Positions 35,701-45,134 of a stretch of DNA of 64,000 nt are shown piece by piece (position 1 is the first letter of the stretch; every line of letters starts with the position of its first letter). Under the pieces are notes generated by a model. That model searched no databases, was not told the origin of the DNA, and saw only the letters and a program-made list of their open reading frames with translations. The DNA is from Intrasporangium calvum DSM 43043 (lineage in GTDB: Bacteria > Actinomycetota > Actinomycetes > Actinomycetales > Dermatophilaceae). The DNA lies in NCBI RefSeq assembly GCF_000184685.1, contig NC_014830.1:2790001-2854000 (forward strand). Reading direction: 5' to 3'. A program made the translations under genes and the position numbers.

Positions 35701-36060
35701 GACCCCTCCTCGACCCTGACTTCCTCATGTCAGCACTGCTGTCCTACCTGCCTGCTGCTCCACCCGAGCTGCTGCCCGAACTGGACTGCTCCTTGGGGGA
35801 ACGGCCACTGAGCGGGACAACTGGCAAGTACAACAATGAAATTACAAGCGTGTCATGCACCTCACGTCAAGCCGTATGATGATATTTGCCTGCCGGGTGC
35901 GGGGTCTGCTACGGCTGCGCCTCGACCCCTCCTCCGCACCGTGGCCAGCCCGCGCACGACAGGCTCCATACCCAAAACCACGACGACCGTCGCCCTCCTC
36001 CGAACCGTCGCGCGGGACCGCTCTGACCGTGGCGCCCGCGGCCCTGAGAGGATCCTCGGC
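35701..36060. promoter_or_regulatory. Divergent promoter region between whiB and fbiA
   Basis: A 360-bp gap without a supported gene. The segment 35826-35895 is the most AT-rich stretch here (ACAACAATGAAATTACAAG and TGATGATATTTGCC), containing a spaced direct repeat TACAAC/TACAAG. A frame on the plus strand runs through it from 35836 but has no family features. I see no clear -10/-35 pair or structured RNA; it probably contains the whiB and fbiA promoters. Confidence 0.5.
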
Positions 36061-37062
36061 ATGCGCATCACAGCCCTGGCCGGCGGAGTCGGCGGCGCCC
36101 GTTTCATCCGCGGCCTCCTGCACCACCTCGAGTCAGCCCGACCGGGCGAGCGGGTGGAGGTCACCGTGATCGGCAACACCGGCGACGACATCACCCTCTT
36201 CGGCCTCCGCGTGTGTCCCGACCTCGACACCATCCTCTACACCTTGGGTGGCGGGGTCCACGAAGGGCAAGGCTGGGGACGTGCGGACGAGTCCCACCAC
36301 GTCGCCGACGAGCTCGCGGCCCTCGGGGCGCTTCCCCAGTGGTTCTCTCTGGGCGACAAGGACTTCGCCACGCACATCTACCGCTCCCAGCTCCTGGCGC
36401 AGGGCCTCCCCCTCAGCGCGGTCACCGCCCGGCTCGGCGCACGTTGGGGGCTCCCCGACCAGGGCGTGACGCTGCTGCCCATGACTGACACCCCCGTGGA
36501 GACCCACGTGGTCGTGACGGAGGGCGGCGAGCAACGCGCCATTCACTTCCAGGAGTGGTGGGTCCGCCACCGGGCCTCCCTCCATGCGGACCGCTTCGTC
36601 GTGGCCGGACTCGACGCGGCTGCACCTGCGCCCGGGGTCCTCGAGGCGATCCGCACCGCCGACGTCGTCCTGCTCCCGCCCAGCAACCCCGTGGTCTCCA
36701 TCGGCATCATCCTCGGGGTCCCGGGAGTGAGGGATGCGCTGCGTGGCACCCGCGCTCCCGTCGTCGGCGTGTCACCGCTCATCGGGGGCCGGCCCGTTCG
36801 CGGCCACGCGGACCTGTGCCTCAGGGCGATCGGTGTCGCGTCGACGAGCGCGGCGGTCGCCGGCCTCTACGCAGACTTCCTCGACGGCTGGCTCGTGGAC
36901 CCGGCGGACCCGATGGAGGAGCCGCCGTCCGGCTCGGCCCCCGCGCTGGTCCGGCGCCCGCTGCTCATGAGCTCGGTCGAGGCCGCCGCCGACATCGCCG
37001 GAGCCGCGCTCAGCCTCGCCGAGAGCCGGGCCGACCGACGCGGACTCGGGGGCGGCAGATGA
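36061..37062 (+). CDS. fbiA: 2-phospho-L-lactate (phosphoenolpyruvyl) transferase FbiA (CofD)
   Basis: A 333-residue enzyme of coenzyme F420 biosynthesis. It joins the activated 2-phospholactyl or phosphoenolpyruvyl group to 7,8-didemethyl-8-hydroxy-5-deazariboflavin (FO). Hallmarks are the nucleotide-binding start ITALAGGVGGARFIRGL, TVIGNTGDDITLFGLRVCPDLDTILYTLGG, and VLLPPSNPVVSIGIILGVPG. ATG 36061 gives the conserved start. It overlaps fbiB by four bases (ATGA). The GG and PSNP motifs are intact. Confidence 0.95.
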   Translation: MRITALAGGVGGARFIRGLLHHLESARPGERVEVTVIGNTGDDITLFGLRVCPDLDTILYTLGGGVHEGQGWGRADESHHVADELAALGALPQWFSLGDKDFATHIYRSQLLAQGLPLSAVTARLGARWGLPDQGVTLLPMTDTPVETHVVVTEGGEQRAIHFQEWWVRHRASLHADRFVVAGLDAAAPAPGVLEAIRTADVVLLPPSNPVVSIGIILGVPGVRDALRGTRAPVVGVSPLIGGRPVRGHADLCLRAIGVASTSAAVAGLYADFLDGWLVDPADPMEEPPSGSAPALVRRPLLMSSVEAAADIAGAALSLAESRADRRGLGGGR

Positions 37063-38165
37063 GCCGGCCCGACGGGCGCGACCATGCCACCGCTTCGACG
37101 GTCTCCATCACGCCTCTGACCGGCATCCCGGAAGTCCGCGACGGAGACTCGCTCGCCGAGGTGGTGGATGCGGGACTGAACGCGTCCGGCCTGGCGCTGG
37201 AGGCCGGCGACATCATCGTCGTGTCGAGCAAGGTGGCCAGCAAGTCGCTCGGGCTCGTGACCCACGATCCGAACAAGGACCGGGTCGTCGCCGCCGAGAC
37301 GGAGTACGTCGTGGCCGAGCGGGCGCTGGCGGGCCGGGTCACGCGCATCGTCCGGTCCAAGGCTGGACCCGTCATGGCGGCCGCCGGGGTGGACGGGTCC
37401 AACACCGGAGAGCACGGGGGCTGGCTGCTGCTCCCCCACGACCCGGACGCGGTCTGTGAACGGCTCCGGGACGAGCTCGTGCGGCGCCATGGAGTCCGGC
37501 TCGGAGTCATCCTCAGCGACACCTCGGGGCGGCCCTGGCGGATCGGCCAGGTGGACTTCGCGCTCGGTGTCCACGGCGTGCGGGCCACCGACGACCTGCG
37601 GGGCGGCACGGACGCGGACGGCAGGCGGCTCGAGGTGACGACGCGGGCGGTTGCGGACGAGATCGCCTCCGCGGCAGACCTCGCCAAGGGCAAGGTCCAC
37701 GGGGTGCCTGCGGCAGTGGTCCGGGGGCTGGGACGGTTCGTCCCCGCCTCGGCCGATCCGTCCGCACCACGGGGACGTGATCTCGTCCGCGCCGGGCCCG
37801 ACGACTGGTTCGGCTACGGTCGGGTCGAGGCGGTCCGCGCCGCCCTGGGAGTCGAGCCAGGCACCCCGGACGCGGAAACGGTGGGGATCCCGCCAACTTC
37901 ACGCTCCGACTCGAGCCGGCTCGACGCCGTGGGCCGGGCGGTGCGCGTCGCACTCCATGCGGTGGGCTCGGGCACGGCCGACGTCGGACCGCGGTCCGTG
38001 ACACTCGGAGCAGACACGCCGTACGAGCTCGGACGTCTCGTGGCTCGGCTCGAGGCGGCGCTGTGGAGCGAGTGGCTGCACGGCTCCGCCGGAGAACCGA
38101 GTGCCGATGGGCGCGCCGTCGTCGTCACGGTGGACGCGGCGCCCAGCAGGCACCCGCGGCCCTGA
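37059..38165 (+). CDS. fbiB: F420-0:gamma-glutamyl ligase (CofE domain), lacking the nitroreductase half of FbiB
   Basis: A 368-residue protein. Residues ~15-260 form the CofE ligase domain (ITPLTGIPEVRDGDSL, GDIIVVSSKVASKSLGLV, RIVRSKAGPVMAAAGVDGSNTGEHGGWLLLPHDPDAVCE, LGVILSDTSGRPWRIGQVDFALGVHG), which adds glutamates to F420. Mycobacterial FbiB carries a ~200-residue FMN-binding nitroreductase domain after this; here the remaining ~110 residues (DAVGRAVRVALHAVGSG...) do not look like it. The dehydro-F420 reduction step must then be done by another protein or be absent. It starts within the fbiA stop. Confidence 0.82.
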   Translation: MSRPDGRDHATASTVSITPLTGIPEVRDGDSLAEVVDAGLNASGLALEAGDIIVVSSKVASKSLGLVTHDPNKDRVVAAETEYVVAERALAGRVTRIVRSKAGPVMAAAGVDGSNTGEHGGWLLLPHDPDAVCERLRDELVRRHGVRLGVILSDTSGRPWRIGQVDFALGVHGVRATDDLRGGTDADGRRLEVTTRAVADEIASAADLAKGKVHGVPAAVVRGLGRFVPASADPSAPRGRDLVRAGPDDWFGYGRVEAVRAALGVEPGTPDAETVGIPPTSRSDSSRLDAVGRAVRVALHAVGSGTADVGPRSVTLGADTPYELGRLVARLEAALWSEWLHGSAGEPSADGRAVVVTVDAAPSRHPRP

Positions 38166-40708: not shown

Positions 40709-42022
40709 TCACCGCCGCAACTCTTGCGGCGTCACGAGGAGGCCGGAGGCATCGAGGTGCCGCAGCAGGGCGTCAACCACATGGGGGTCGTACTCGTAGC
40801 CGAGTCCGAGGTAGATCCGCTCCACGGCCGTCTCCCGGGCGCGCGGGCTGCGTGACCCGCCCGTCAGGTCCTCGTAGGCGTTGACCACCTTGAGGATCCG
40901 GCTCGTGAGCGGGATCTCCTCGCCGAACTCGCGGGCCTGCCGGAAGGGGGTCGCCTGGTGCTCCAGGATGGTCGCGGCGTCGTCGAGGACGCCGGTCTCG
41001 CGGACGATCGCCAGGGTGTCCGCCCCGATCCGGCGCTGGTCCGCGGGGGCGGCGAGCACGGTGGCTCCCCCAGGGATGGGGTCGACGAGGGCCACCTGGC
41101 CGATGTCGTGGAGCAGGGCGGCGTACTCGAGGTTGGCCAGCTCCCGGTCTGGCAGCCCCAGCCCGCGTCCCACGGCGAGGGCGGTGGCTGCCACCCGCTC
41201 GGAATGACCGGCAGGCGTGTACCCGGCCGCATCGGTGAGCCGGGACAGCGTCCGGATGCTCTGGAGGTAGGTGGCTCGGATGCTGACGTAGCGACGGAAG
41301 GCGAAGAGCGTCAACACCAGTGGTGAGAGGAAGAGCGGCACGGCGGGGGCGCCGAGCGGCGGTACCGCGAGCGCGATGAGGACGCCGGTCACCGCCAGGG
41401 CGGTGGACAGCGGGAAGGTCGACCGGACCTCGTCCTTGAACGTCTGCCACCAGGCCGCTCGCAGCAGGGCCCGGGCCGTCGTCGTCACGAAGGCGTCGGC
41501 CAGGAGCGCGACAACGGCGATGGCGAGCATGAGTACGGCCCGCTGCCACGGGTCGAGCCCGTCGTCCCCCACGGGTCTCCCACGCACCTGGCCGAGGTGC
41601 ACCACGCGGTACAGCAGGGCAGCGACGGCGACGCTGACGAACCGACCGGTCGTCTCGACCGGGCTCACCTGCCGCCCGGTGAGGTGTCGGACCAGGGCCA
41701 CGACGGTGATCGCCGAGGCGGTCACCGCGAGCAGGAAGACGGAGCCGTACGACACGCCCCGCCCGTCCGGGAGCTGAGCCGTGAAGACGAAGCCCAGGGC
41801 TGCCGCGGTGGCGAGCGGCGCCGACTCCCGGAAACGCGGCCCGGCCACCTGGAACCACTCACCCAGCAGGATGGCCGCGGTGAAGGTGGCGACGAGGACC
41901 GCGCTGTCCGCCTCGTCCCAGGCCGGCGAGTCGGCCGAGAGAACGACGAGGATGACGCACGTCGCGATCGCGGCGGCAGCGGCGGACAGCGGCTTGACTC
42001 GCTCGGCAAGCGTCGCGTTCAC
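40709..42022 (-). CDS. Membrane protein with a degenerate HD-GYP-like domain (A)
   Basis: A 437-residue protein. The N-terminal ~220 residues hold about seven membrane helices. The C-terminal domain resembles HD-GYP phosphodiesterases: SRLTDAAGYTPAGHSERVAATALAVGRGLGLPDRELANLEYAALLHDIGQVALVDP, then TILEHQATPFRQA and IPLTSRILKVVNAYEDLTGG. The HD metal pair (LLHDIGQ) is present, but the GYP motif, the HH pair and the middle histidine are not recognisable, so canonical c-di-GMP hydrolysis is unlikely. GTG 42022 overlaps the stop of the related gene B (GTGA). A small hairpin lies over its stop. Confidence 0.75.
   Translation of the reverse strand: MNATLAERVKPLSAAAAAIATCVILVVLSADSPAWDEADSAVLVATFTAAILLGEWFQVAGPRFRESAPLATAAALGFVFTAQLPDGRGVSYGSVFLLAVTASAITVVALVRHLTGRQVSPVETTGRFVSVAVAALLYRVVHLGQVRGRPVGDDGLDPWQRAVLMLAIAVVALLADAFVTTTARALLRAAWWQTFKDEVRSTFPLSTALAVTGVLIALAVPPLGAPAVPLFLSPLVLTLFAFRRYVSIRATYLQSIRTLSRLTDAAGYTPAGHSERVAATALAVGRGLGLPDRELANLEYAALLHDIGQVALVDPIPGGATVLAAPADQRRIGADTLAIVRETGVLDDAATILEHQATPFRQAREFGEEIPLTSRILKVVNAYEDLTGGSRSPRARETAVERIYLGLGYEYDPHVVDALLRHLDASGLLVTPQELRR
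40713..40731 (-). terminator. Hairpin overlapping the 3' end of HD-domain gene A
   Basis: An 8-bp stem CGCCGCAA/TTGCGGCG with loop CTC, lying in the last codons of the gene. No T run follows. It could act as a terminator at the end of this operon. Confidence 0.4.
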
Positions 42023-43353
42023 GTGTCGGCGCCCTCACTCGGGGGCCACTCGTGCTTGGCCAGGACCCGCCGCAAGGCGTCGAGGACCACCGGGTCGAAT
42101 CGGCCCCGGTCGGCGTCGAGGAGGCCGACGGCCGACTCCGGGGTCAGCGGCCGGTCGGGCAGGTCGACCTGGGTGAGGTCGGTGAGCTCCCCTGCGACCG
42201 CGACGATCCGCGCCGAGACCGGGATGTCGGCCCCGGCGAGGGAGCCGGGCCCACCGTGGCCGTCGAACCGCTCGTGCTGGTGGCGGATCCCGGAGCGCGC
42301 CTCGTCGAGGAAGCTGATGCCCTCGACCATGCGTGCGCCCACGACGCCGTGAGTGGTGAGGAGGCGACGTTCCTGCGACGTCATGAGGTCCGGCGACCGT
42401 CGGAGAGTGCGAGCCGGGATGGCCAGGTGCCCGATCTCGTGGAGCGTCCCCGCGTAGCGCACGGCCCCGATCTGGTGCGGCCCGAGGCCGAGCTCCTCGG
42501 CGAGCCACTCCGACAGGCGAGCCGCCCGGCGGCTGCGCTCGATGGCGGCTGGCTCCTTCTTGCCGAGCGCGGTCACGAGGGTGTCAAGGGTTCGCTCGTG
42601 CGAGCGCAGCTCGTCGCCGTACTGGATGAACGCCCACCGGGCTGCCAGGAGGGGTGCGAGGACGAGGACGGCACTGAACGGCCCGAGCTGCGCGGGGAAC
42701 CACAGGACGACGAAGAGGAAGCCGATGATGCCGTAGCCCACGTAGGCCCACCCCGAGCCGCTGAGCACCCGCCGCACCATGATGGTGAACGGCACCCCCT
42801 GGTAGAAGTGGATGACGCCGGCCAGGAGCAGGGCGTTGGTGAGGCACCCGACGACGTCGGCGATGAGGATCGGGACGCCGACGGAATGGGTGATCGTCAA
42901 CACGCCGTGCATCGACTCGAGCTGCCGCTCACCTCCTGCCGCCAGATAGGCGAGCGCGCCGACCGCGCCGATGATCCCCGTCATGGCCACGTTGAACGTC
43001 GTCTGCAGCCGCAGTCTCCCCCGGTCCGTCGCCATCGACACCGTGCCGACGAACCACGCGCCGAACGGGCCGACGATGACGCCGGCCGCGAGCAGGATGA
43101 TGCTGTTGAAGGAGAAGCCGATGCGGGAGCCGACATCCGGCTCGCGCAGCCGGTAGCTGAGGGTGGCCATGGCGGCCAGGATCGCGAGGGGCCAGAGCTC
43201 AGGCATTCCGAACGCGCTGTAGGTGTACGCACCCATGGCCACCGACACGGCCGCCGTCAGGAAGATGAAGCTGTGGAGAGCCACCGAGCGCTTGGAGATG
43301 GCGCGTCCCCGCAGGGAGGAGGGGATGCTGCGGGAACGGGACAGGATGCTCAT
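42019..43353 (-). CDS. Membrane protein with a degenerate HD-GYP-like domain (B)
   Basis: A 444-residue protein with about seven N-terminal membrane helices (FIFLTAAVSVAMGAYTYSAFG, LWPLAILAAMATLSYRLR, IILLAAGVIVGPFGAWFVGTVS...). The C-terminal domain reads AVRYAGTLHEIGHLAIPARTLRRSPDLMTSQERRLLTTHGVVGARMVEGISFLDEARSGIRHQHERFDGHGGPGSLAGADIPVSARIVAVAGEL. It has the HxxxG helix and a HERFDGHGGP match to the HHExxDGxGYP block, but the HD pair is HE and GYP is GGP. It pairs with gene A, which keeps HD but lacks the rest. ATG 43353 lacks a clear ribosome-binding site. Confidence 0.75.
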   Translation of the reverse strand: MSILSRSRSIPSSLRGRAISKRSVALHSFIFLTAAVSVAMGAYTYSAFGMPELWPLAILAAMATLSYRLREPDVGSRIGFSFNSIILLAAGVIVGPFGAWFVGTVSMATDRGRLRLQTTFNVAMTGIIGAVGALAYLAAGGERQLESMHGVLTITHSVGVPILIADVVGCLTNALLLAGVIHFYQGVPFTIMVRRVLSGSGWAYVGYGIIGFLFVVLWFPAQLGPFSAVLVLAPLLAARWAFIQYGDELRSHERTLDTLVTALGKKEPAAIERSRRAARLSEWLAEELGLGPHQIGAVRYAGTLHEIGHLAIPARTLRRSPDLMTSQERRLLTTHGVVGARMVEGISFLDEARSGIRHQHERFDGHGGPGSLAGADIPVSARIVAVAGELTDLTQVDLPDRPLTPESAVGLLDADRGRFDPVVLDALRRVLAKHEWPPSEGADT

Positions 43354-43399: not shown

Positions 43400-43495
43400 T
43401 CAGGTTCCCCACGTCCACGTGTCGCTGCCCAGGACGGTCGCCAGGCTCACGACGAACGGGCTCGCCGCGAGGGCGATGAGGAGTTTGCGCAACAT
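43400..43495 (-). CDS. 31-residue hydrophobic peptide
   Basis: A short open frame preceded by a very strong AAAGGAG eight bases before its ATG. The product (MLRKLLIALAASPFVV... ending TWTWGT) has a basic start, a single hydrophobic helix and a short polar end, like a small membrane peptide. It lies 46 bp upstream of HD-domain gene B on the same strand and is likely part of the same transcript. Without homologues I cannot tell whether it is a functional peptide or a leader peptide. The Shine-Dalgarno strength, better than that of the following gene, is the main evidence. Confidence 0.6.
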   Translation of the reverse strand: MLRKLLIALAASPFVVSLATVLGSDTWTWGT

Positions 43496-43760
43496 GGTGG
43501 GGGCTCCTTTATCGGGACACATGAACGCAGGCACCCTGAGCGGGGCCAACAGGTGCGTCGCTTACAGAGTGCCAAACTTGTCGGCTCTTGCGGGGAAACC
43601 GACCCCCAGGAACGTCATTCTTTACCAAGTTCTTAACCTTCTCGGGCCGCCCGACGCCCAGAGACGCACGGATTGGGGCCTCAGGCGCCGATGTGGAAGA
43701 ATCAGGGCTTCGTGCCCTCGGGGCACTGACCACCCAGCACCACCGACGAAAAGAGCCGAG

Positions 43761-43835
43761 ATGAGCAAGCGCGCCCGCAAGCGCCGCTCGCGCAAGGGCA
43801 ACGCAGCCAACCACGGCCGCAAGCCCAACGCCTGA
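43761..43835 (+). CDS. Ribosomal protein bL37 (24 residues)
   Basis: A 24-residue, very basic protein (start MSKRARKRRSRKGN, end NHGRKPNA) matching the actinobacterial large-subunit protein bL37, which in mycobacteria sits in a pocket of 23S rRNA. ATG 43761 has AAAAGAG upstream. A large compound hairpin follows. It is too short for many gene finders. I am fairly sure of the family from the KR-rich start and the NHGKRPNA-like end. Confidence 0.85.
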   Translation: MSKRARKRRSRKGNAANHGRKPNA

Positions 43836-43971: not shown

Positions 43972-44262
43972 TCAGCTGCCGCCCTCGATCCGGAACACCG
44001 TCAGCGAGATGCGGCTCATGATCGACGTGCGCAGCTGGTCCGGCGCGTGCTCCGCACTGCAGGACCGTTTGATGAGGGCCTTGAGCGTCGTGTCGAGGTT
44101 GTACTCGTGGAGGCAGGGACCGCACTCGTCGAGGTGGGCCTGGATCTTGGCGCAGTCCGTTGGCCCGAGCTCACCGTCGAGGAACTCGTAGACGCGGAGG
44201 AGGGCTTCGGAGCAGTCGGTCCGCCCTGCCGGTGCCGCGTCGTCACGCTCGGCCATGCCCAT
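43972..44262 (-). CDS. rsrA: Mycothiol-system anti-sigma-R factor (RsrA-like zinc-binding anti-sigma)
   Basis: A 96-residue ZAS-family anti-sigma factor. The HxxxCxxC motif HLDECGPC, plus an N-terminal cysteine (CSEALLRVYEFLDGEL, TDCAK), would bind zinc and sense disulfide stress. It overlaps the sigR stop by one base (TGATG); a GTG at 44265 is an alternative start. Under thiol oxidation the zinc is released and SigR is freed to transcribe thioredoxin, mycothiol and proteolysis genes. Confidence 0.9.
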   Translation of the reverse strand: MGMAERDDAAPAGRTDCSEALLRVYEFLDGELGPTDCAKIQAHLDECGPCLHEYNLDTTLKALIKRSCSAEHAPDQLRTSIMSRISLTVFRIEGGS

Positions 44263-44957
44263 CACCGCTTCCCTCCAGCCCCGCCTGCGGTGACGAATCC
44301 CCGCTCGGCGGCGTAGTCGGTCAACAGCTCCCGCAGCTGGCGGCGACCTCGGTGCAGCCGGCTCATCACGGTGCCGATGGGCGTGTCCATGATCTCGGCG
44401 ATCTCCTTGTAGGAGTAGCCCTCGACGTCGGCGAAGTAGACCGCGAGGCGGAACTCCTCGGGAATCTCCTGGAGGGCCCGCTTGACGTCGCTGTCCGGCA
44501 GGTGGTCGAGGGCCTCGGCCTCGGCCGAGCGCAAGCCCGACGAGGTGTGCGACTCGGCCCGGGCGAGCTGGTAGTCCTCGATGTCGGACGAGTCGGCCTC
44601 GAGCGGCTGGCGCTGCTTCTTGCGGTAGCTGTTGATGTAGGTGTTCGTGAGGATCCGGTACATCCAGGCTTTGAGGTTCGTGCCCGGCTTGTACTGGTGG
44701 AAGGCCGCGTAGGCCTTGGCGTAGGTCTCCTGCACCAGGTCCTCGGCGTCGGTCGGGTTGCGCGTCGTGCGCAGGGCGGCGCTGTAGAGCTGGTCGAGGA
44801 GGGGCATCGCCTCGAGCTCGAAGCGAGCGCGTCGCTCGGCCTCGGTCTCGGTGGCGACGTCCGCGGTCCCCGCTCCCTCCGGGAGCTCCGCGGCGGCGCG
44901 GGGCGCGTCGGCGACGGAGATCGCCGAGGCGGGGCCGGTCTTCTTGTCCTTGGTCAT
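44262..44957 (-). CDS. sigR: RNA polymerase sigma factor SigR (ECF, disulfide-stress)
   Basis: A 231-residue ECF sigma factor. Region 2 is [73 protein letters not shown] and region 4 is [48 protein letters not shown], matching SigR/SigH of Streptomyces/Mycobacterium. ATG 44957 has GGGAGG upstream. An autoregulatory SigR promoter (GGGAAT-N18-GTTG) lies ~80 bp upstream in a tandem repeat array. The next gene encodes its anti-sigma factor. Confidence 0.93.
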
Positions 44958-45042
44958 CGCCTCCCACCCTAACCCGATGGGGAAGGTCGCCGGAGCGATC
45001 GTGCGGGCCGACGCATCCGGCTGGCAGGTGACCATGCTCCTG

Positions 45043-45070
45043 CAACGCCGCTCCTGCGGGCAGCATTCCC
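45043..45070 (-). promoter_or_regulatory. SigR-type autoregulatory promoter of sigR
   Basis: On the minus strand GGGAAT (45070-45065), then exactly 18 bases, then GTTG (45046-45043), matching the SigR/SigH consensus GGGAAT-N18/19-GTT. The transcript would start about 80 bases before the sigR ATG. Confidence 0.75.
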
Positions 45071-45112
45071 GCTCCTGCGGGCAGCATTCCCGCCCCGCGG
45101 GCAGCATTCCCG
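45051..45112 (-). repeat. Tandem 20/21-bp repeat carrying SigR -35 elements
   Basis: Two exact 21-bp units (45051-45071, 45072-45092) and a 20-bp variant (45093-45112). Each unit has GGGAAT on the minus strand. Only the copy nearest sigR is followed by GTT at the right distance. Confidence 0.85.
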
Positions 45113-45134
45113 CCCCGTCGGGCGTCACTCCCCG

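Follow-up and report, generated by a model that had tools for sequence, protein, structure and literature searches.

Two adjacent genes in Intrasporangium calvum DSM 43043 encode membrane proteins with HD-GYP-like domains, here called protein B (upstream) and protein A (downstream). They lie in a 64,000 nt stretch of the genome (GCF_000184685.1, NC_014830.1, 2,790,001–2,854,000), referred to as the window, and all coordinates are positions within it. The pair appears to correspond to hdgA/hdgB of Streptomyces, B being HdgA-like and A HdgB-like, and is present in a genome with no detected GGDEF match, with an incomplete set of catalytic metal ligands in each protein, and with a short open reading frame (ORF) carrying a tryptophan (Trp) motif just upstream of B. 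It is tentatively proposed that together these form a peptide–HdgA–HdgB module that has outlived cyclic di-GMP (c-di-GMP), in which B would be the membrane receptor, A the output, and the peptide a ligand or small subunit, a proposal that stands somewhat short of probable. The features concerned are:

42019–43353, minus strand: protein B, HdgA-like, with a membrane domain and a decayed HD-GYP domain; ATG start, 444 aa; upstream of A
42619–43353, minus strand: membrane domain of B, residues ~1–245, with an energy-coupling factor (ECF) S-component-like fold in the model
42022–42618, minus strand: HD-GYP-like domain of B, residues ~246–444, with R273, HE 305–306, H335, Q359, H360, DGHGGP, and G388
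40709–42022, minus strand: protein A, HdgB-like, with a membrane domain and a divergent HD-GYP-like domain; GTG start, 437 aa; downstream of B
41282–42022, minus strand: membrane domain of A, residues ~1–247, with an ECF S-component-like fold in the model
40712–41281, minus strand: HD domain of A, residues ~248–437, with conserved H273, H305, D306, Q309, and N381 and a GYEYDP end
42019–42022, minus strand: four-base overlap of the B stop and the A start, read in the sequence
43400–43495, minus strand: short Trp-motif ORF, 31 aa, a hydrophobic stretch followed by a C-terminal SDTWTWGT
43504–43510, minus strand: Shine-Dalgarno-like AAAGGAG of the short ORF, with AGGA in 10 of 10 aligned sequences, the window included

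An initial annotation had described two adjacent HD-GYP-like membrane proteins whose genes overlap by four bases, and both ORFs are indeed present, each matched by Pfam HD_5 (A, E = 1.6e-12; B, E = 1.8e-30). The 3' end of B is ATGA or GTGA in 26 of 29 B genes, the window included and printed junctions counted, and from these sequences the overlap looks to be general among relatives. Among 58 sampled genomes, including that of the window, a B match adjoins A in all 34 that have a clear A match (above 90 bits), with pairing made from match positions; in G009 the B match beside A is weak, at 22.4 bits. No unpaired homologue, which the initial annotation had named as grounds for abandoning its proposal, was seen in these 34 genomes. 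A scan of named genomes with the A profile gave at least 325 relatives, and the figures for named loci refer to the best 80 of them. B is upstream of A in 79 of the 80, the remaining locus (L117) having the start of A near a contig end. The named loci were selected by A, and therefore B without A cannot appear in that set. In genome G007 (contig C224; L019/L054), a single ORF of 1017 aa encodes both B and A, joined by a low-complexity linker rich in Ser, Gly, and Ala, and this one natural fusion suggests that A and B work together, perhaps as a complex.

The initial annotation did not recognise the pairing as described; however, it has already been published for Streptomyces venezuelae, where hdgA (vnz24090), encoding six transmembrane segments (6TM) and an HD-GYP domain, and hdgB (vnz24095), encoding 6TM and a degenerate HD-GYP domain, were named by Al-Bassam and colleagues (PMC6205966). 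According to the available portion of that paper, the two genes very likely form one operon, both proteins are in the membrane fraction, and a count of 79 of 93 is given for HdgB (PMC6205966). HdgB self-interacts in a two-hybrid assay in the accessible part of a 2026 paper (PMC13232838), while the part available of another (PMC13118837) mentions an HD-GYP protein and does not mention the pair. On the pair outside Streptomyces, no publication was found in the open-licence literature. In a class-wide sample, A was matched in 126 of 394 genomes and 52 of 138 genera. Within genus g80, presumed to be Streptomyces, the genus name being inferred, A was matched in 34 of 39 among the genomes listed (E 1e-68 to 1e-125), which is close to the published 79/93 for HdgB. 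In three g80 loci a complete HD-GYP B lies before A, with both after sigR-rsrA. The window likewise has adjacent genes for an HD-GYP and a degenerate HD-GYP protein, both with an N-terminal membrane domain; its B does not have the complete HD-GYP domain of HdgA.

Residues of both proteins were mapped on the seven metal ligands of PmGH that are common to the HD-GYP groups (H189, H221, D222, H250, H276, H277, and D305; numbering from the available text of PMC4159591). A retains four of the seven, H189 (as H273), H221 and D222 (H305 and D306), and a histidine, H355, at the H276 position, although the alignment of A near H276/H277 is less certain than that near HD. It has Q329 for H250, Q356 for H277, N381 for D305, and Q309 for K225, and carries no GYP. 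B retains three, H221 (H305), H250 (H335), and H277 (H360), together with E278 and DGxGGP, and has R273 for H189, E306 for D222, Q359 for H276, G388 for D305, and H309 for K225. The ligand set of an active HD-GYP c-di-GMP phosphodiesterase is complete in neither. This agrees with the initial annotation, in which A kept the HD pair but lacked the rest of the HD-GYP signature, and B had a DGHGGP-type block with HE in place of HD. In PmGH, alanine mutants of ligands absent from A and from B abolish activity, as far as the available text goes (PMC4159591). The annotation's further suggestion that both proteins may be sensors without catalysis fits with each lacking essential PmGH ligands and with there being no GGDEF match in the genome.

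The core of A is the same in all 81 aligned rows, with H273, H305, D306, and Q309 in 81/81 and N381 in 80/81, the remaining row having a gap. Random decay of A is rejected because this pattern is shared. The single I and single D in the counts for A most likely come from the fusion row, L054, in which the A row contains B residues.

Unlike the A core, the catalytic residues of B vary between lineages. All seven ligands are present in B in 61 of 79 named loci, 58 of which also have K225, and in the class sample all seven are present in 31 of 31 B proteins read (33 loci looked at). Ligands have been lost from B in 17 of the 79 named loci, with one further row cut by a contig end, all in genera of the window's family. 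Membership of that family is partly presumed for the genera with a decayed B; L068 was placed in it through a match to contig G033:C232. The pattern of loss differs between genera. Intrasporangium, Terrabacter, and Humibacillus show R/E/Q at the altered positions, Phycicoccus, Knoellia, Janibacter, and Ornithinibacter are affected in the HHE-GYP half, and Flexivirga has lost H189. As read from the sequences, loss of catalytic residues in B is confined to the window's family in these loci.

The single-contig genome of the window has no GGDEF match at E<=0.001, where 8 of 14 control genomes do match. Nothing for EAL was above cut-off in the genome, with one match below it (G000:C1:1517281–1517481, minus strand, 20.2 bits) in a 265 aa frame. 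A and B are the only HD_5 matches, and one DAC c-di-AMP synthase is encoded. No GGDEF protein that could supply an active HD-GYP c-di-GMP phosphodiesterase with its substrate was thus found in the genome. A GGDEF match is absent from 23 of the 34 pair-bearing genomes, two of the 23 (G028 and G033) being only 81% complete. For 30 B proteins of the sampled genomes, the window's own included (G009, G011, G012, and G014 were left out, their B not being among the B loci), B is complete on seven ligands and K225 in 5/10 with GGDEF versus 1/20 without (one-sided Fisher 0.009), and on the seven ligands only in 6/10 versus 5/20 (Fisher 0.07), these values ignoring kinship. That GGDEF loss is the full cause of B decay is thus only partly supported, the outcome depending upon how completeness is defined.

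Purifying selection acts on B in all the pairs measured, whatever has been lost from its active site, and this is looser than for A between the window and the nearest named relative, I. calvum PheN6 (L062). In this comparison the ratio of nonsynonymous to synonymous substitution rates (dN/dS) is 0.078 for A (0.045 for its HD part) and 0.32 for B (0.41 for the membrane part, 0.21 for HD). Between the window and L063, it is 0.31 for A and 0.43 for B. Other pairs with a decayed B gave A/B values of 0.207/0.186 (Terrabacter), 0.322/0.318 (Humibacillus), and 0.300/0.237 (Knoellia). Where B is complete, B is the slower in three Actinomadura pairs (A/B 0.164/0.075, 0.127/0.077, and 0.243/0.168), while A is the slower in a Nonomuraea pair (0.096/0.153).

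The single-protein models are confident, with a predicted local distance difference test (pLDDT) score of 91.4 for A and 92.0 for B. By VIA-align, both HD halves are closest to DvhD (B, Z 23.1, 202 aligned, root-mean-square deviation (rmsd) 3.5; A, Z 17.2, 182 aligned, rmsd 4.3), a fold shared by the models of both proteins. Near matches also include PA4781 (B, Z 22.7), PmGH, and, for A, V-cGAP3 (Z 17.0), with the A profile matching the V-cGAP3 chain (5z7c) at 1.1e-16 in three stretches. The membrane half of B aligns with the transition-metal S-component 4m5b (Z 14.1, 186 aligned, rmsd 3.7), followed by FolT (12.9), RibU (12.0), ThiT (11.6), and BioY (11.5), and that of A with RibU (Z 12.2, 163 aligned, rmsd 3.6) and FolT (11.9). 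The membrane proteins within both top-50 lists are S-components. Both modelled membrane halves would therefore resemble the fold of ECF S-components, a fold that alone shows no ligand. No publication on S-component-type HD-GYP sensors was found in the open-licence literature.

The stop codon of the short ORF is 46 nt from the start codon of B, and its sequence has one match in the genome. A Trp-motif ORF is present upstream of B, the candidate receptor gene, in 78 of 100 distinct loci, the window included, compared with a mean of 1.5 and a maximum of 4 in 15 dinucleotide shuffles and with 2/100 on the reverse strand. The rules called for 14–90 codons, a stop within 260 nt of the B profile start, and one Trp criterion, this being WxW near the end, an [GA][VIT][SAT]W end, or a repeated Trp 4-mer. 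An earlier filter gave 73/109 loci versus 2.5 in 20 shuffles. The loci are not independent, and therefore these counts show that the ORF is real, not its rate. Segments upstream of other long ORFs also match in 44 of 1289 cases; among the 40 listed, 17 or 18 repeat the B segment, taken from an alternative start of one and the same ORF. Repeated Trp cores are found in 9/100 loci versus 0.2 in shuffles, such as GYTWQG x4 (L113), GWSW x3 (L097), and SVLTWRP x4 (L031). The short ORF is statistically real. Its pooled ratio of nonsynonymous to synonymous polymorphism (pN/pS) is 0.51 over ten pairs; two loci were used twice, each pair contributes few counts, and in one pair the ratio exceeds 1.

The N-termini of the short ORFs are hydrophobic in Intrasporangium and Nonomuraea, MKKIVxxVE in several metagenome-assembled genomes (MAGs), and polar in Actinomadura; a Sec-like signal can be seen by eye in Knoellia, Janibacter, and Phycicoccus. 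Eight versions of the ORF gave only sub-cut-off matches in Pfam and NCBIfam, no publication on it was found in the open-licence literature, and in ten aligned regions upstream of it no clear sigma-R motif was seen by eye. The short ORF of L011 (genome G025) has three full copies of an AWSWGPQS unit.

Taken together, these observations can be arranged as follows. The ancestral B would have been a membrane phosphodiesterase for c-di-GMP whose receptor domain was S-component-like, and the ancestral A its paired pseudoenzyme with a conserved pocket of its own. In species that make c-di-GMP, B would break it down under control of a peptide or small molecule. In the window's lineage, catalysis by B would have been lost, while the B membrane domain, the A pocket, and the short ORF were retained. 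The S-component-like domains of an A–B complex might then sense the Trp-tipped peptide, whether exported or membrane-anchored, or a small molecule, and the HD-derived domain of A might relay the signal without c-di-GMP breakdown. In the window a non-catalytic route seems to be what is left, with the conserved pocket of A the likely output.

Several observations weigh against this proposal. Deletions of hdgA and hdgB gave no developmental phenotype in the available account, in which the authors suspected that activating signals were missing from their tests (PMC6205966). Class-wide, the pair accompanies GGDEF, which is present in 122/126 A-bearing genomes versus 211/268 without A (matched from listings), and the four A-bearing genomes without GGDEF are all in the window's family; c-di-GMP independence is therefore a trait of that family. 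Between the window and L062, the HD part of B is slower to change than the membrane part, the putative receptor. Stronger constraint on A than on B among decayed pairs is seen only in the window's comparisons (L062 and L063), not in Terrabacter, Humibacillus, or Knoellia, which would mean that constraint has moved to A in Intrasporangium at most. S-component Z scores of 10–14 are within the range where VIA-align warns of chance helical-bundle matches, and Foldseek lends the S-component match little support in the case of A (best E 0.97) and modest support in that of B (E 0.02). The motif rules for the short ORF were fixed after hits had been seen, the shuffles being run under the same rules. 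The Actinomadura and MKKIV types have no signal sequence by eye, and thus export is not general. No Trp-motif ORF was found in the three presumed Streptomyces loci, and therefore the pair can exist without the peptide gene. The link from the peptide to A and B is itself drawn from sequence.

The short ORF might instead be a regulatory leader of hdgA/hdgB, acting through Trp codons or ribosome stalling, and neither ligand nor subunit. Its position, stopping shortly before B with a good ribosome site, the clustering of Trp codons at its end, and the lack of an export signal in some versions would all suit a leader. However, a leader would have no obvious need for repeated cores or for Sec-like signals with AxA sites, and the GVSWx versions have just one Trp codon at their end, which leaves this explanation unlikely. 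For the HD domains, B, A, or both could be dinucleotide receptors like DvhD, for c-di-AMP or for a nucleotide from a non-GGDEF source. DvhD of Desulfovibrio vulgaris (9rbz, 9rc0), to which the HD halves of A and B are closest in fold, acts as an HD-GYP receptor, binding c-di-GMP without hydrolysis (available part of PMC13090378), the genome encodes the DAC c-di-AMP synthase, and the PgpH–c-di-AMP complex aligns to B (Z 15.1) and A (Z 12.9). Set against this are the absence of a GGDEF match and the preference of DvhD for c-di-GMP, c-di-AMP being less effective (PMC13090378), and such receptors have only a modest chance of being the answer. That A is an active HD phosphohydrolase acting on another nucleotide with a one-metal site (H, HD, N) is improbable. 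Its H, HD, Q, and N vary hardly or not at all, its HD part is strongly constrained between the window and L062, and it aligns at Z 8.9–11.8 with HD proteins such as YpgQ, PPX, and GppA, but in the 81 rows D305 has become N (with the one gap) and K225 has become Q, and in PmGH K225A abolished activity while D305A reduced it (available text of PMC4159591).

The initial annotation had proposed that A and B complement each other in one composite catalytic site, and some evidence does point that way. The genes adjoin in nearly all loci seen, the proteins jointly carry six of the seven common ligands, and a His at the H276 position of A tracks the loss of H276 from B, being present in 6/11 named pairs and 6/10 sampled genomes where B lost it, versus 1/68 and 2/18 where B kept it (one of the two sampled cases is the fused ORF, its A row mixed with B residues). 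The six named cases, however, are all of the window's clade (A H355 and B Q359 in the window), so that the agreement may reflect a single event, and in Knoellia and Janibacter, the other decayed clade, H276 is lost in B and A has Arg at that position. A His355 opposite B Gln359 may be chance or a trace of coupling. D305 is lost in both proteins, and the eight ligands of PmGH are described, in the available text, as side chains within one HD-GYP domain (PMC4159591). The A core is unchanged where B is complete (61/79 named loci). Since A shows today's core even alongside a complete B, as in the majority of relatives, a composite site is highly unlikely, although the coincidence at H276 stands. 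Equally remote is the explanation that the pair is a relic decaying after c-di-GMP loss. The restriction of ligand loss in B to the window's family (17/79 named loci and the cut row, 0/31 in the class sample) would be in keeping with it, but the dN/dS values between the window and L062 (0.32 for B, 0.078 for A) and the retained reading frames and overlap are not.

The proposal of a retained peptide–HdgA–HdgB module can be extended to a new actinobacterial peptide-sensing system. Its signal would be the exported Trp-tipped peptide, in tandem in some species, its receptors the paired S-component-fold membrane proteins with HD-GYP-derived outputs, and in species that make c-di-GMP the peptide would control its breakdown by HdgA, the window's family having been rewired to the pseudoenzyme A without c-di-GMP. 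This joint reading is rather unlikely.

On either side of the pair are further genes:

43972–44265, minus strand: rsrA/rshA anti-sigma factor gene (NCBIfam antisig_RsrA, 98.8 bits, above cut-off; start chosen by the author)
44262–45128, minus strand: sigR/sigH-type sigma factor gene (NCBIfam SigH_actino, 354 bits, above cut-off)
43761–43835, plus strand: basic ORF of 24 aa, MSKRARKRRSRKGNAANHGRKPNA, oriented divergently from the short Trp-motif ORF
35836–38165, plus strand: genes for coenzyme F420, with cofD passing the NCBIfam cut-off and a cofE-like frame narrowly missing it

Neighbours of sigR type are present in 70 of 79 named loci; eight of the other nine end early at contig ends, and L130 is without them. 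The 24 aa ORF, which is presumed to resemble a small ribosomal-type protein, is 96–100% identical near the pair in 17/79 named loci, and cofD with a cofE-like frame is also near it in 5/79. In L076 and L149 (MAG) an in-frame TAG divides the A gene into two ORFs, and the A gene of G137 has one TAG; the split A gene of L076 and L149 may be a sequencing error, a pseudogene, or recoding.

Of what is described here, the HdgA/HdgB pair in Streptomyces was already known. The literature searches made turned up no account of the pair being kept where GGDEF is undetected, of the unvarying signature of A, of the S-component-like folds, or of the Trp-motif ORF. If the Trp peptide is the input, the HdgA/HdgB branch gains a signal, and synthetic peptides could be used to test the peptide family that accompanies the pair in many actinomycetes. 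The window's family is a natural experiment in which a second-messenger enzyme pair has been retained where synthases were not found, and it could show what carries the lasting function, be it the A pocket, the membrane domains, or the peptide.

Among known systems, V-cGAP3, with its HD-[HD-GYP] arrangement, is taken to have two HD-type units side by side, like A and B. It is reportedly a soluble single chain, named as a 3'3'-cyclic GMP-AMP (cGAMP) phosphodiesterase, whereas A and B are two membrane proteins, neither of them complete. The modelled fold of both membrane halves is like that of the ECF S-components (RibU, FolT, ThiT, BioY, CbiM), from which they differ in being fused to a signalling domain. 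DvhD shares with them a non-hydrolysing HD-GYP-type domain and is the best structural match of both HD halves; it differs as a single protein with periplasmic and PAS domains that is reported, in the available text, to be a c-di-GMP receptor (PMC13090378). From HdgA/HdgB the pair differs in that Streptomyces HdgA is complete in a genome that makes c-di-GMP, while B of the window is decayed and no GGDEF protein was found, and in that a Trp-motif ORF precedes B in the window and not in the three presumed Streptomyces loci. It is like HdgA/HdgB of S. venezuelae in setting a 6TM protein with HD-GYP beside one with a degenerate HD-GYP domain in a probable operon, and in three presumed Streptomyces loci the pair follows sigR-rsrA, just as sigR and rsrA adjoin the pair in the window.

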